Source: Myxococcales bacterium | GTDB taxonomy: Bacteria > Myxococcota_A > Polyangia > Polyangiales > Polyangiaceae | DNA: 33,001 nucleotides | Assembly (NCBI GenBank): GCA_947473045.1 | Contig: CANJCO010000053.1 | Location: 1 to 33,001, forward strand | Direction of reading: 5' to 3' | Shown: in pieces, positions 1 to 6,943 of the stretch | Position numbering within the stretch: the first letter of the stretch is position 1 | Layout of the letters: every line of letters begins with the position of its first letter | Position numbers and translations under genes: made by a program | The notes under the pieces: generated by a model | The model's database searches: none | What the model saw: the letters and a program-made list of their open reading frames with translations, nothing else | What the model was told of the DNA's origin: nothing

Positions 1-984
1 ACTGGCGGCCTCATCGTGCGCACGCTCGCCGAGGGCCTCACCAAAAAGCAGCTCAAGGCCGACGTCGGCTACCTCGTGCGTCTGTGGGGCGAGATCGCCA
101 AAAACCGCGAAGGGGCACGCCCGCCGCACGCGCTGATGACCGAGCTCGACATCGTGCTCAAGACGGCGCGCGACATGTTCACCGACGAGGTCGACAAGAT
201 CATCATCGACGACAAGACGCAGCACGAGCGCGTCTGCCGATTCGTCGAGATGTTCGCGCCCGAGCGCGTGAAGGACATCGAGTTTTACACGGAGGACGAG
301 CCCATTTTCGACGCCTACGGCATCGAGGACGAGATCGCCCGCGCCCTGTCGCGCAAGGTTCCGCTGCCGAGCGGCGGCCATCTCATCATCGATCAGGCCG
401 AGGCCCTCACCGCGATCGACGTGAACACCGGCCGCTTCGTGGGCAAGGGAAGCAAGGACATGGAGGAGACGATCCTCAAGACGAACCTCGAGGCCGTCAA
501 CGAGATCGCCTACCAGCTGCGCTTCCGAAACATCGGCGGCCTGATCATCCTCGATCTCATCGACATGGAAAAGTCGGCGAACCGCGAGAAGGTGCGGCGC
601 ACGCTCGAAGATCTGCTGCAAAAAGACAAAGCCAAGACCACGCTCAACCGCATCAGCGAGCTGGGCCTCATCGAGATGACCCGCAAGCGCACCCGCGAGT
701 CGCTTGGGCGCACGCTCAACGAACCTTGCTTCTATTGCGACGGCACCGGCCAGCTTCAGAGCAAAGAGACTGTGGCCTACGAGATTCTCCGCGAGCTGCG
801 TCGCCGGCACTCGGATTTGCCGGGCTACACCGTGGTTGTGCACGCGCACCCGGCGGTCGCCGATGTGCTCATGGGCGACGAAAAAGACGCGGTCGCTGCG
901 GCAGAAAACAAGTTCATGCGCAAAATCACGGTGATTCCGCGCACCGAGTACCACCTCGAGCAGTTCGATCTCGCGGGCAAGTAG
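1..984 (+). CDS. rng: Ribonuclease E/G family protein (RNase G-like), 5' end cut off by the window
   Basis: This is the C-terminal 327 residues of an RNase E/G endoribonuclease, which processes rRNA precursors and starts mRNA decay in the cytoplasm. The reading frame is open from base 1, so the gene begins upstream of the window; the GTG at 16 is internal. Near the start the sequence has the IVRTLAEG block typical of the family. The two Mg-binding aspartates of the DNase I-like catalytic domain are seen in TAIDVNTG and in LDLIDMEK. The zinc-link cysteines appear as CFYCDGTG near the end. The protein stops soon after the zinc link and has no long disordered RNase E tail, which points to the RNase G type. 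Family assignment is very secure; choosing RNase G over a short RNase E is an inference from the tail. Confidence 0.95.
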   Translation, partial: TGGLIVRTLAEGLTKKQLKADVGYLVRLWGEIAKNREGARPPHALMTELDIVLKTARDMFTDEVDKIIIDDKTQHERVCRFVEMFAPERVKDIEFYTEDEPIFDAYGIEDEIARALSRKVPLPSGGHLIIDQAEALTAIDVNTGRFVGKGSKDMEETILKTNLEAVNEIAYQLRFRNIGGLIILDLIDMEKSANREKVRRTLEDLLQKDKAKTTLNRISELGLIEMTRKRTRESLGRTLNEPCFYCDGTGQLQSKETVAYEILRELRRRHSDLPGYTVVVHAHPAVADVLMGDEKDAVAAAENKFMRKITVIPRTEYHLEQFDLAGK

Positions 985-2547: not shown

Positions 2548-3417
2548 TCAGGTCTTCGCGCGCGCGCGCTGCGCCCTCGCCGCGCTGATTGAGCGCGGGC
2601 GGGCCGCGGCGGGTTTTTTAGCGCCCGCCCTTTTTGCAGGCGCCTTCGCACCTGCTTTTCGGGACTTCGCCGGCGCGGGCTTGTTCGGGGCCGGTTCGGG
2701 CTTCGGAGCAGGCTCGGGCCTCGGCGCGGGCTCGGCCCACCGGTAGAGCTGAGCGGGGCGGTGACGGCCGGTGCGCTGCTCGGTCTCGATCGCCACGACC
2801 GTCTTGTCGGCGATGAGCTTCGCGCGGAAATTGCGTTTGTCGACCGCGTGTCCGATCACCGCCTCGTACACGTGCTGCAGCTCGCTGAGCGCGAAGCGCG
2901 GCGGCACGAAGTCGACCGCGCGTCGCACGCCGAGCTGCGAGGCTTCATGGCGGAGCACCTCGAGCGATCGCGCCAGAACGGCGGCGTGATCGAAGGCGAG
3001 GCGCACGCGTCGTCGCCCAGCGGCGGCACGCTCCAGCGCCGCGACCGAGTGCCACTCCGCGGCCGAAGCGTCGTCGCCGGCGCGCACGCTGCCGTGCGCC
3101 GGGCGCCCTGCCGAGACGGCGAACGCGAGGAACGCAACGCTCACCGTGTGCCCCCGCGGATCGCGTCCAGGATCGCCGAACGCGCCGATTTGCACGAGGC
3201 GCACGCCCGTGAGGCTCGTCTCTTCCTGCAGCTCGCGAAGAGCAGCGTGCTCGAGGCTCTCGCTCTCATCGACGAAGCCTCCGGGGAGCGCCCACGACCC
3301 TTTGAACGGAGCGTGCGCGCGCTTGATGAGCAGCACAGTGAGCTCGCTGTTGCGAATGGTGAAGATCGCGACGTCTACCGTGACGGCAGGGCGGGCATAC
3401 TCGTAGGTGAAGGGCAC
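2548..3417 (-). CDS. Nudix hydrolase with C-terminal winged-helix domain and Lys/Ala/Pro-rich tail (NrtR-like)
   Basis: The 289-residue protein has a Nudix box at residues 47-69 fitting G-x5-E-x7-REL-x-EE-x-[G]-L, with Ser68 replacing the usual second Gly. Residues about 160-228 resemble the winged-helix region of NrtR-type regulators, ending in the typical RHRPAQLYRW block. Such proteins are either ADP-ribose pyrophosphatases or ADP-ribose-sensing regulators of NAD metabolism. Residues 229-289 form an unusual low-complexity tail, first PAPKPEP repeats and then a KAGAKAPAKRAGAKK stretch like histone H1 or AlgP, suggesting nucleic-acid binding. The start is GTG at 3417. It lies 56 bp after the ArsA-like gene and 73 bp before the dismutase gene, so the three may be one operon. 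Whether it still hydrolyses substrate is unknown. Confidence 0.87.
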   Translation of the reverse strand: MPFTYEYARPAVTVDVAIFTIRNSELTVLLIKRAHAPFKGSWALPGGFVDESESLEHAALRELQEETSLTGVRLVQIGAFGDPGRDPRGHTVSVAFLAFAVSAGRPAHGSVRAGDDASAAEWHSVAALERAAAGRRRVRLAFDHAAVLARSLEVLRHEASQLGVRRAVDFVPPRFALSELQHVYEAVIGHAVDKRNFRAKLIADKTVVAIETEQRTGRHRPAQLYRWAEPAPRPEPAPKPEPAPNKPAPAKSRKAGAKAPAKRAGAKKPAAARPRSISAARAQRARAKT

Positions 3418-3473: not shown

Positions 3474-4391
3474 CTAAATGCGCTTGGCGAGCTCCCGGAT
3501 CGCGCTCGGCGTCGCGGCGTCTTCGAGCAACAGCGGGAGAAACGCCGGGGCGATCGGCAGCTCCGTTGCGAGCCGCGAGAGGCTCTCGGCCTGCACCCGC
3601 TCGCGGACCGATCGCATGGCTGCCGCGACGAGCGCGGCGTCGCCCCGGGTGACCACCGGCTGCAGCGCCGCCGCCTCCAGGGTGGCGCGCTCCTGGATGG
3701 AAAAGAGGGGAGGAAGCACGCAATTGACGACGACCTGCGCGATCGGAAGATCGAGCTCGCCCGTGAGCGCGCGCGCGAGCTCGAGTGTCTCGGTCGTGGG
3801 CATCTCTTCAGGGAGCGTCACAAGCACCACGCCGGTCGCGTCGGGATCGCGAAACATGTTCCAGGCGCGCTCGGCGTCGCGGCGAAGCAGTCCCGGCGGA
3901 ACGATATCGACGATGACTTTCGGCACACGAAGCATGTCGAGCCCGTGGCCGGTGGCCGGCGCGTCGAGGATGACGACGTCGTATTTTCGCGAGCCGTCGG
4001 CCAGCGTCTCGGTGGTGTGCCACCACGCCTTGCCGAGCAGCGCCCACTCCTGCAGCCCTGGCACCGCCCGGAAGAACGTGCGGACGTATTTGTTATCGAA
4101 GAGCACCGAGTAGAGCATCTTCGAGTTGAGGGCGAGCGCGCCGTATTCTTCGAGCGCCTGCTCGGGTGCCATGTTGACGGCCCAAATGCCCGGAGCTGCG
4201 CGCATGACGTCGGCGCCGATGAGGTCGCAGCCGAGCATCGCCGACAGCCGCTCTTTGGCGTTGCACATGGCCACGAGCACGCGCTTGCCGCTCTGCGCGA
4301 GCGCGACCGCGTGCGCGGCTGCGACGGTGGTCTTTCCGACGCCGCCCTTGCCGGTGACGATCAAAAAGCGCCGATCTTTGAGCGCTGCCAT
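3474..4391 (-). CDS. ArsA/GET3-family anion-transporting-like ATPase
   Basis: A 305-residue single-domain P-loop ATPase of the SIMIBI class. It has a deviant Walker A GKGGVGKT at residues 14-21 and the family switch-like motif DAPATGH at about 143-149. The length fits one ArsA half. There is no arsR, arsB, arsC or arsD nearby and no obvious arsenite-binding Cys cluster, so an arsenite-pump role is unlikely; bacterial members of this family are often found in pairs and are poorly characterised. Here only one copy is visible. It is the first gene of a - strand run with the Nudix and superoxide dismutase genes, divergent from RNase J across 90 bp. AGAGG lies just upstream of ATG 4391. Confidence 0.88.
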   Translation of the reverse strand: MAALKDRRFLIVTGKGGVGKTTVAAAHAVALAQSGKRVLVAMCNAKERLSAMLGCDLIGADVMRAAPGIWAVNMAPEQALEEYGALALNSKMLYSVLFDNKYVRTFFRAVPGLQEWALLGKAWWHTTETLADGSRKYDVVILDAPATGHGLDMLRVPKVIVDIVPPGLLRRDAERAWNMFRDPDATGVVLVTLPEEMPTTETLELARALTGELDLPIAQVVVNCVLPPLFSIQERATLEAAALQPVVTRGDAALVAAAMRSVRERVQAESLSRLATELPIAPAFLPLLLEDAATPSAIRELAKRI

Positions 4392-4481: not shown

Positions 4482-6110
4482 ATGTCGGTCAGGTTGTTCG
4501 CGCTCGGGGGTCTCGGCGAGGTTGGCATGAACTGCCTCGCCCTCGAGCAGGACGGTCAGCTCATGCTCATCGACTGCGGCGTGACCTTCGGGCTCCGCGA
4601 GTTCGGCGTCGATGTGATGCACCCCGATTTCAGCGCGCTCGAAGCCTACCGTGACCGGATCGCAGGGCTGGTGATTACCCACGGTCACGAAGATCACATC
4701 GGCGCGGTGCCCTATTTTTTGCGTCGGTTCGACGTTCCTGTCTGGGCGCCGCCCTATGCGCTCGAGCTCATTCGAGGGCGCGCGGCCGAGCACGAGATCT
4801 TGTCGCATGCGCGGTTCGAGACCACTGCGCCGCGGCACAAGTTTCGTGTGGGCCCGTTCGAAGTCGAGCCCATTCGCGTGACGCATTCGATCGCCGACGC
4901 CACGTCTCTGGCCGTCAAGACGAGCGCGGGAACGGTCATTCACACGGGTGACTTCAAGTTCGATCCGACCCCGCCCGATGGCGAGCTGTTCGACGAGGAG
5001 CGCTTCGTTGAGCTCGGCCTCGAAGGCGTGTCGCTGCTGATGTCGGATTCGACCAACATCGATGCTGCCGGAACCACCGCCAGCGAGCGCGACATCGGCG
5101 AGGCGCTTTTTAGTCGAATTTCGGCGGCGCCGGGCGCCGTGGTGGTCGCGCTGTTTGCGTCGAACGTGCACCGGCTGCGGCTGCTCGGCGACATCGCGCG
5201 GCGCACGCAGCGGCGCCTCGTGCCGATGGGGCGCAGCGTGCTGCGGCACCTGGAGGTCGCCCGCGACACGGGCTATCTGTCGTGGCCGAGCGATTTGATC
5301 TGGCCTGCCAACCGCGTAGGCGAGCTGCCACGCAATCGCGTGCTCGCGGTGGCGACCGGAACGCAGGGAGAACCTCGTGGAGCGCTGAGCCGCATCGCTC
5401 GCGGAGAGCACGCCATGAAGCTCGACCCGAGCGACACGGTGATCCTGTCGAGCCGGGCGATCCCGGGCAGCGAGCACGAGGTGCAGGCTGTGATGGCCGA
5501 CCTGTACCGCGCGGGGGTAAACGTTGTTTCGTGGGGCTCGGACCGCTCGATCCACACCAGCGGCCACGCTCACCGCGAGGAGCAACGCAGAATGCTCGAG
5601 CTGGTGCGGCCGCGCTCGTTCGTGCCGCTGCATGGCACGCTGCATCACCTGCATCGCCACGCGTCGCTCGCGCGCGAAACCGGCGTCGCCGACACGCTGG
5701 TGCTCGAAAACGGTGACGTCGCCGAGCTCGGCGCCGGCGGCGTGCGCAAGGTCGGCCGCGTGCACTCGGGGCGCGCGTTTTGCGCGGGAGGCAAGTCGCT
5801 CGGCGCGGGCGTGCTGCGCGACCGGCGCGCGATCGCCGCGGAAGGCGTCGCGGTGGTGGTCATCGTGGCTGCGCGCGGAAAGGCGGCAAGAGCCGTAGTG
5901 ACGACGCGCGGCGTGCTCGACGAGAGCGCCGATCGGCGGACGGTCGCGCAGGCTGAGCGCGAAGCGGCAGACGCATGGGACGCGAGCGCCTCGCGCGACG
6001 GTGAGTCGCGTCGCGAGTCGGTGCGGGCCGCCGTTCGTCGCGTGCTTTTTCGGGCGTATGGCGTGAAGCCGACGACGGTCGTGACCGTCGCGGGAGATGG
6101 AGGCACATGA
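4482..6110 (+). CDS. rnj: Ribonuclease J (metallo-beta-lactamase/beta-CASP exo/endoribonuclease)
   Basis: A 542-residue beta-CASP ribonuclease acting in 5' end-dependent RNA decay and maturation. It begins with the RNase J hallmark ALGGLGEVGMN and has the zinc motif HGHEDH at residues 67-72, further ligand motifs VTHSIAD and HTGDFKFD, beta-CASP segments such as ATGTQGEPRGAL and SSRAIPGSE, and the late SGHAHREEQ and VPLHGTLHH motifs. The C-terminal part is shorter and more divergent than in Bacillus. The open frame extends far upstream of the homology; ATG 4482 is chosen because the family signature starts there. Its stop overlaps the start of the CHAD gene (ATGA), so the two are probably translationally coupled. 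Confidence 0.95.
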   Translation: MSVRLFALGGLGEVGMNCLALEQDGQLMLIDCGVTFGLREFGVDVMHPDFSALEAYRDRIAGLVITHGHEDHIGAVPYFLRRFDVPVWAPPYALELIRGRAAEHEILSHARFETTAPRHKFRVGPFEVEPIRVTHSIADATSLAVKTSAGTVIHTGDFKFDPTPPDGELFDEERFVELGLEGVSLLMSDSTNIDAAGTTASERDIGEALFSRISAAPGAVVVALFASNVHRLRLLGDIARRTQRRLVPMGRSVLRHLEVARDTGYLSWPSDLIWPANRVGELPRNRVLAVATGTQGEPRGALSRIARGEHAMKLDPSDTVILSSRAIPGSEHEVQAVMADLYRAGVNVVSWGSDRSIHTSGHAHREEQRRMLELVRPRSFVPLHGTLHHLHRHASLARETGVADTLVLENGDVAELGAGGVRKVGRVHSGRAFCAGGKSLGAGVLRDRRAIAAEGVAVVVIVAARGKAARAVVTTRGVLDESADRRTVAQAEREAADAWDASASRDGESRRESVRAAVRRVLFRAYGVKPTTVVTVAGDGGT

Positions 6111-6943
6111 CAATCGTGAGACGATCGGGGCCGTTTGTTGTGCGGGCGTTGCGCGCCACAGACCGCGAAATCACGCGCGCGCTCCCGCGCGTTTTGCGGT
6201 CGAGCGACGATGAGGCGGTGCACGACCTGCGGGTCGGCATTCGCCGGATGCGCGTGCTCCTCAAGCTCGCGCGGCCCGTCTTCGGCCGCTTTCACGCCGA
6301 CGCAGTGCGTGCAGGATACACGGTTATTCACCGGTCGACCGGGGCGCTTCGGGATGCCGAGGTCCTCGACGACACGGTGACCGAGCTCGGTCTGTCGGAC
6401 GCTCAGTTTGCCACCTGGATCGGCCGTCGGCGGGCGCTTGAAGCGCGGCTGCGTCGCGGCGTGGTCGCGGGCCTCGAAGCGGGAGATCTCGACCGTGCCC
6501 GGGCCCGCCTGCACGCGCTGCTCCTGCTTCCGATTGAGCCGTCGAAGGACATCGAGCTCACCCGGTTTTCGAAAAAGAGCGTGGCGCGGGCGTTCGCGCG
6601 CGTGGCGAAGCTGGCCGGCACGCCGCCTGCGGACGTGGTTGGTTTGCATGCGCTTCGCATCGCTTACAAGGGGCTTCGATACGCCGCCGAGATCCTCGCC
6701 GTGGCCGTGGCGCCCGAGCTGGCGGCGCTGGGCGCTCCGGCCGCGAAGTTTCAAAAACGCCTTGGTGAGATTCACGATCTCGACGTGGCGCGTGAGGTCG
6801 TGTCACGGGCGCGCAGCCTGCCGGTCGCCGATCGCGCTCACGCGCTCGCGTTACTTTCAGCCGCGCGCGAGGCGGCGGTCGCGAAATACCTCGCCGAGCC
6901 GCCGCTCCGGATCCTGCGCCCCGAGGCGCCGAAACGCGTCTGA
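6107..6943 (+). CDS. CHAD-domain protein
   Basis: A 278-residue, Arg/Ala-rich all-helical protein with the two halves of a CHAD domain. The first conserved block is VHDLRVGIRRMR (residues 38-49), with LRDAEVLDD following; the second is LHALRIAYKGLRYAAE (about 181-196), followed by FQKRLGEIHDLDVAR. CHAD domains carry basic surfaces that bind inorganic polyphosphate and are often fused or adjacent to CYTH triphosphatase domains; no CYTH domain is present here. The start overlaps the RNase J stop by four bases, with GGAGG just upstream inside the RNase J frame. That context links it to RNA decay rather than to the usual polyphosphate genes. Confidence 0.92.
   Translation: MTIVRRSGPFVVRALRATDREITRALPRVLRSSDDEAVHDLRVGIRRMRVLLKLARPVFGRFHADAVRAGYTVIHRSTGALRDAEVLDDTVTELGLSDAQFATWIGRRRALEARLRRGVVAGLEAGDLDRARARLHALLLLPIEPSKDIELTRFSKKSVARAFARVAKLAGTPPADVVGLHALRIAYKGLRYAAEILAVAVAPELAALGAPAAKFQKRLGEIHDLDVAREVVSRARSLPVADRAHALALLSAAREAAVAKYLAEPPLRILRPEAPKRV

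Follow-up and report, generated by a model that had tools for sequence, protein, structure and literature searches.

An RNase J gene coupled to a CHAD-domain gene in Polyangiaceae: a possible link between RNA decay and polyphosphate

It is still an open question in which way polyphosphate influences RNA decay in bacteria; most work on it has been done in E. coli, via polyphosphate kinase (PPK), Hfq and RNase E. In the window analysed here (the whole stretch of 33,001 nucleotides from a member of the Polyangiaceae), a gene for RNase J, one of the principal enzymes of RNA decay, overlaps a gene for a protein with a CHAD domain, a type of domain that binds polyphosphate (Lorenzo-Orts et al., PMC6537752). 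Do these genes merely adjoin, or do their products act together, and would polyphosphate then be the ligand that matters? The literature searched, in which few subscription journals were covered, yielded no description of a pair of RNase J (ribonuclease J) and CHAD, the single match being an author's given name. Our preferred reading, to which we assign a probability of roughly 0.55, is that the CHAD protein serves RNase J as a dedicated subunit, placing the enzyme on, or under the control of, polyphosphate.

The gene pair in the window

The features of the locus used in this work are as follows.

4482-6110, + strand: rnj, RNase J, 542 aa, from ATG at 4482 to TGA at 6110, with TIGR00649 and Pfam matches
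4680-4697, + strand: HGHEDH metal-binding motif, RNase J residues 67-72, invariant in 46 of the 46 readable paired RNase J sequences
6099-6103, + strand: GGAGG, a possible ribosome-binding site for CHAD within rnj, not universal among relatives
6107-6110, + strand: ATGA overlap, read from the sequence, comprising the CHAD start and the rnj stop
6107-6943, + strand: CHAD-domain protein, 278 aa, from ATG at 6107 to TGA at 6943, with a PF05235 match of 124.4 bits
6221-6253, + strand: first polyphosphate-contact motif, HDLRVGIRRMR (H39, R42, R46), aligned to H253, R256 and R260 of C. tepidum
6647-6682, + strand: second polyphosphate-contact motif, HALRIAYKGLRY (H181, R184, K188, R191, Y192), in which R191/Y192 correspond by alignment to C. 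tepidum R418/Y419

Both genes appear intact, and genome-wide a single CHAD and a single RNase J were found. The ATGA overlap and the GGAGG inside rnj had been reported in a first-pass annotation of this DNA and are indeed present; the GGAGG lies 3 nt 5' of the CHAD ATG, and a further GGGAG (6092-6096) stands ahead of the CHAD start. Four-nucleotide overlaps are ordinary in bacterial operons, so that a single instance carries little weight and only recurrence exceeds chance. No universal Shine-Dalgarno sequence for CHAD was found among the pair loci, several of which have none, a pattern that is compatible with coupled translation and does not prove it. An enrichment of A before the rnj stop was also considered as proof of coupling and was dropped, since unpaired rnj genes likewise end in ATGA quite often (8 of 28).

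The RNase J of the window scores 425.5 bits against the NCBIfam family TIGR00649 (cut-off 400), carries the Pfam domains Lactamase_B, RNase_J_b_CASP, RMMBL and RNase_J_C, and has true RNase J enzymes as its closest solved relatives. It shares domain order and catalytic residues with the enzymes of H. pylori (7pcr) and B. subtilis (J1, 3zq4), its metal-binding residues aligning with those of H. pylori RNase J, and differs from both in coming with a CHAD protein, to which it is fused in one genus. The active-site residues (HGHEDH, H135, D157, H362 and H384) are invariant in the paired enzymes, and an active enzyme, predicted from these intact residues, is the best explanation. The possibility of an inactive paralogue was rejected, given the intact catalytic residues and the finding of no other RNase J in the genome. 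Described partners of RNase J, such as RNase J2 and the helicase RhpA, are not known to bind polyphosphate.

Occurrence, register and fusion of the pair

We surveyed 108 genomes of the Polyangiaceae, of which 83 have a CHAD gene, 102 have RNase J and 79 have both. In 58 of these 79, CHAD lies directly 3' of rnj on the same strand, and in one further genome (G051) the pair is split by a contig end, which brings the total to 59 species in 27 genera. Among the named genomes with the pair are records of Sorangium cellulosum, Minicystis rosea, Polyangium, Byssovorax and Labilithrix; many uncultured Polyangiaceae and Myxococcales have it as well. The first-pass annotation had taken restriction to a single strain as grounds for abandoning its idea; the pair instead spans the 59 species and is fused in one genus. 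The survey counts (58/79) likewise reject a strain-specific or chance overlap.

The register of the two genes is almost constant. Of 41 named, unfused pair loci with readable genes, 39 have a CHAD start codon exactly at the 4-nt overlap (24 ATG, 13 GTG and 2 TTG), one keeps the -4 frame without a start codon there, its CHAD starting 9 bases further on, and the last has a small gap and a different register. With TGA as the stop, three of the four possible bases at x make xTGA a start codon; it is therefore the constancy of the -4 register (40/41), and not the presence of a start codon, that is informative. The rnj-CHAD pair is a real, conserved unit, and the two genes would form a two-gene, translationally coupled unit.

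Outside the Polyangiaceae, the other sampled families of the order mostly have both genes, but apart, and no linked rnj-CHAD was found wherever we checked. When a profile of the linked CHADs was run against 377 genomes of the phylum, matches with E < 1e-50 came solely from the Polyangiaceae, the best match elsewhere reaching 4e-30. A pair occurring throughout Myxococcota is thereby rejected; the conservation that the first-pass annotation had proposed to look for across that phylum holds within the family, and for the genomes sampled its phylum-wide scope was too broad.

The linked CHAD of a Labilithrix luteola metagenome-assembled genome (5905-6840 of L044, the same gene as that of L004) has an in-frame TAG, attributable to decay or to a sequencing error. 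A second RNase J, which scores higher, is present in Sorangium-like genomes at a great distance from the RNase J-CHAD pair (L111, G020:C6:765620-767242; likewise in G106 and G114-G118).

In one Polyangiaceae metagenome-assembled genome (L079, JADLAB010000020.1, G052), a single frame of 944 aa encodes an entire RNase J with an entire CHAD domain behind it. Another species of this genus has a locus (L144) that is 94% identical to L079 at the DNA level, in which the frame runs on from the end of RNase J into the first helix of CHAD and meets no stop before the contig end; the remaining part of its CHAD is found in L145, the gene being divided over two contigs. The in-frame fusion is seen in these two species of one genus only. 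An assembly frameshift is an unlikely source, as the identical in-frame junction recurs in the second species, where it is the contig end that breaks the gene. Fusion of genes that are adjacent elsewhere is a classical sign of products acting together.

The fusion bears directly on the view that the genes are only co-expressed, for instance because both are needed in starvation, and that RNase J and CHAD never meet. Four-base overlaps are common enough in operons, and translational coupling alone could explain the register; against this stand the in-frame fusion in two species, the persistence of the pair while its neighbours change and the separate clade formed by the linked CHADs, and we regard co-expression alone as quite unlikely. 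The preferred reading of a dedicated subunit implies a protein-protein contact between RNase J and CHAD, which we infer from the pairing and the fusion; on RNase J itself there was no interface signal, only six weak candidate residues.

The CHAD protein, polyphosphate and RNase J

The CHAD protein exceeds the Pfam cut-off for PF05235 (25.6 bits) by a wide margin, and its AlphaFold2 model (pLDDT 95.3) has the two four-helix-bundle fold. It aligns over 272 residues with the crystal structure of a CHAD-polyphosphate complex (6qva, Z 22.3) and matches 6qv5 with Z 23.9, whereas unrelated helical bundles score well below both, at Z of about 11. The same fold is shared with the CHADs of C. tepidum (6qva) and R. 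communis (6qv5) and with Streptomyces PptA (6rn5), all at Z 20.7-23.9, and with the CHAD of E. coli ygiF (5a60, Z 14.8). The latter is fused to a triphosphate tunnel domain, whereas the constant partner of the linked CHADs is a ribonuclease.

Known CHADs and phosins resemble the window protein in their polyphosphate-contact residues. Its H39, R42, R46, R82, R191 and Y192 correspond to C. tepidum H253, R256, R260, R296, R418 and Y419, and mutations at H253, R256, R260, R296 and R418/Y419 reduce or abolish polyphosphate binding (PMC6537752). All six residues are invariant in 40 linked CHADs, as are both contact motifs, and the protein presents a conserved, strongly basic face. From these residues this CHAD would be expected to bind polyphosphate in the cell.

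A basic face may of course serve another purpose. The CHAD protein could be a subunit with a structural or RNA-handling role in RNase J, its basic groove serving RNA or the enzyme and polyphosphate not being the relevant ligand; fusion and exclusive pairing would suit any tight partner, and the C. tepidum CHAD binds heparin too (PMC6537752). Yet the two CHADs tested bound no single-stranded RNA or DNA (PMC6537752), every contact residue with a measured effect on polyphosphate binding is invariant in the linked CHADs, and PPK1 is kept in all near-complete paired genomes, all of which make this alternative unlikely in our view.

Among the family genomes that have RNase J and are at least 90% complete, all 45 paired ones encode PPK1, as do 25 of the 32 unpaired ones (Fisher p 0.0014, with relatedness ignored). 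Without the completeness limit the counts are 58/59 and 35/43 (p 0.004, relatedness again ignored). Four or more of the seven PPK1 losses belong to a single clade in the RNase J tree; given this clustering and the disregard of relatedness, the association is supportive and not a proof. The window genome itself has PPK1 on contig C38 and a double-domain PPK2 on C116, neither of them on the contig of the window.

Taken with the conserved pairing, the fusion and the intact contact residues, the presence of PPK1 and PPK2 speaks for RNase J being functionally linked to a partner that binds polyphosphate, and on this genomic evidence the link is well supported. The suggestion of the first-pass annotation, that the CHAD protein may tether RNase J to polyphosphate granules or adjust RNA decay to phosphate status, is plausible and partly supported, namely as regards the functional link. 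Could the CHAD protein instead be an ordinary granule protein (phosin) that borrows the rnj promoter, organises polyphosphate granules and has no part in RNA decay? Other CHAD proteins are located on polyphosphate granules (PMC6537752, PMC10892726), and no other CHAD was found in the window genome. Such a role leaves unexplained both the fusion to RNase J and an exclusive, long-kept partner, and is very improbable. Stand-alone CHADs have been placed in operons with polyphosphate-metabolising enzymes (PMC6537752), and what CHAD proteins do beyond binding to granules is reported to be unknown (PMC10892726).

If the preferred reading is right, an active RNase J and its dedicated CHAD subunit would work as one complex, in which the CHAD subunit would bind inorganic polyphosphate via its conserved basic pore. 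CHAD would then place RNase J on polyphosphate, or polyphosphate would hold or modulate the enzyme, at times when the polymer accumulates in starvation or stress. The effect might be to recruit RNase J or to store it, to inhibit it or to activate it. In E. coli, RNase E is helped by polyphosphate to associate with Hfq bodies, and the polymer reportedly counteracts RNase E-mediated decay in vitro (PMC13193609); both RNase R and RNase E bind polyphosphate (PMC12345225), and the degradosome contains PPK (Blum et al., 1997, as cited in PMC13193609). On these findings it is no less likely that RNase J is stored or restrained on polyphosphate during starvation than that it is activated. As in E. coli, polyphosphate would meet the main mRNA-decay machinery, and PPK is encoded in the window genome too, but the E. 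coli link involves PPK, Hfq or lysine-rich stretches together with RNase E or RNase R, whereas here a dedicated CHAD is encoded with RNase J. More tentatively, and with rather less than an even chance of being correct, polyphosphate might be a scaffolding or allosteric ligand of an RNase J subunit through which the phosphate and energy store switches or relocates bulk mRNA turnover; this would constitute a new kind of post-transcriptional starvation response.

The pairing suggests a physical connection of RNA decay to a stored phosphate polymer in one family of soil myxobacteria, a family that includes developmentally complex members. The polyphosphate-binding module is joined to RNase J itself, a pairing that 27 genera have kept and one has turned into a fusion, and it offers a clean, genetically defined test system, namely a single small protein whose ligand-contact residues are known and which lends itself to deletion or point mutation. 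Should the link hold, CHAD proteins would gain a specific cellular client.

Descent and neighbourhood of the pair

The RNase J-linked CHADs group together in the CHAD tree, in a clade (99% SH-aLRT) of 46 linked and 5 unlinked rows, and the second CHADs of the same genomes (e.g. G021 and G087) lie outside it. In the RNase J tree, an all-unpaired clade of 13 lies in among the paired enzymes. Both are quick trees that do not fix the number of gains and losses, and the simplest reading would be that the pair arose once, at the base of the family, and was lost several times. Members of the family that keep RNase J without a linked CHAD do exist, so that CHAD is dispensable for RNase J function as such; no CHAD remnants were found behind the unpaired rnj genes.

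In much of the all-unpaired clade, a gene for a lipoprotein-like calcineurin-type phosphoesterase follows rnj in place of CHAD. Such a gene adjoins rnj in family members that lack the linked CHAD (L139, L149, L150, L154-L157 and L160-L162), and none was found at the paired loci whose flanks are complete. A convergent gene for a peptidyl-prolyl isomerase lies near rnj at several loci, both paired and unpaired, which suggests that the two kinds occupy the same chromosomal place.

The flanking genes change while the pair persists, and among 24 loci with full flanks the commonest tested neighbour occurs in 8; as these loci were found via CHAD, what they reveal is the constancy of RNase J as its partner. 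A larger conserved cluster was rejected, as the upstream genes for an ArsA-like ATPase and a Nudix-type protein vary, and so do the downstream genes. In the window, the ArsA/Get3-like ATPase gene (3474-4391, - strand) and the Nudix-type gene (2548-3417, - strand) are divergent from rnj, and each is near rnj in 5 of the 24 pair loci with full flanks. The polysaccharide deacetylase gene downstream in the window was not found next to CHAD in the other loci examined.

The window genome, in which no RNase Y was found, also encodes an RNase E/G. The C-terminal part of this gene occupies positions 1-984 (+ strand) of the window, where it is cut by the contig start, and the remainder is on another contig (G000:C88). 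The RNase E/G and RNase J genes are thus about 3.5 kb apart in the window, and the neighbourhood of L053 is alike.
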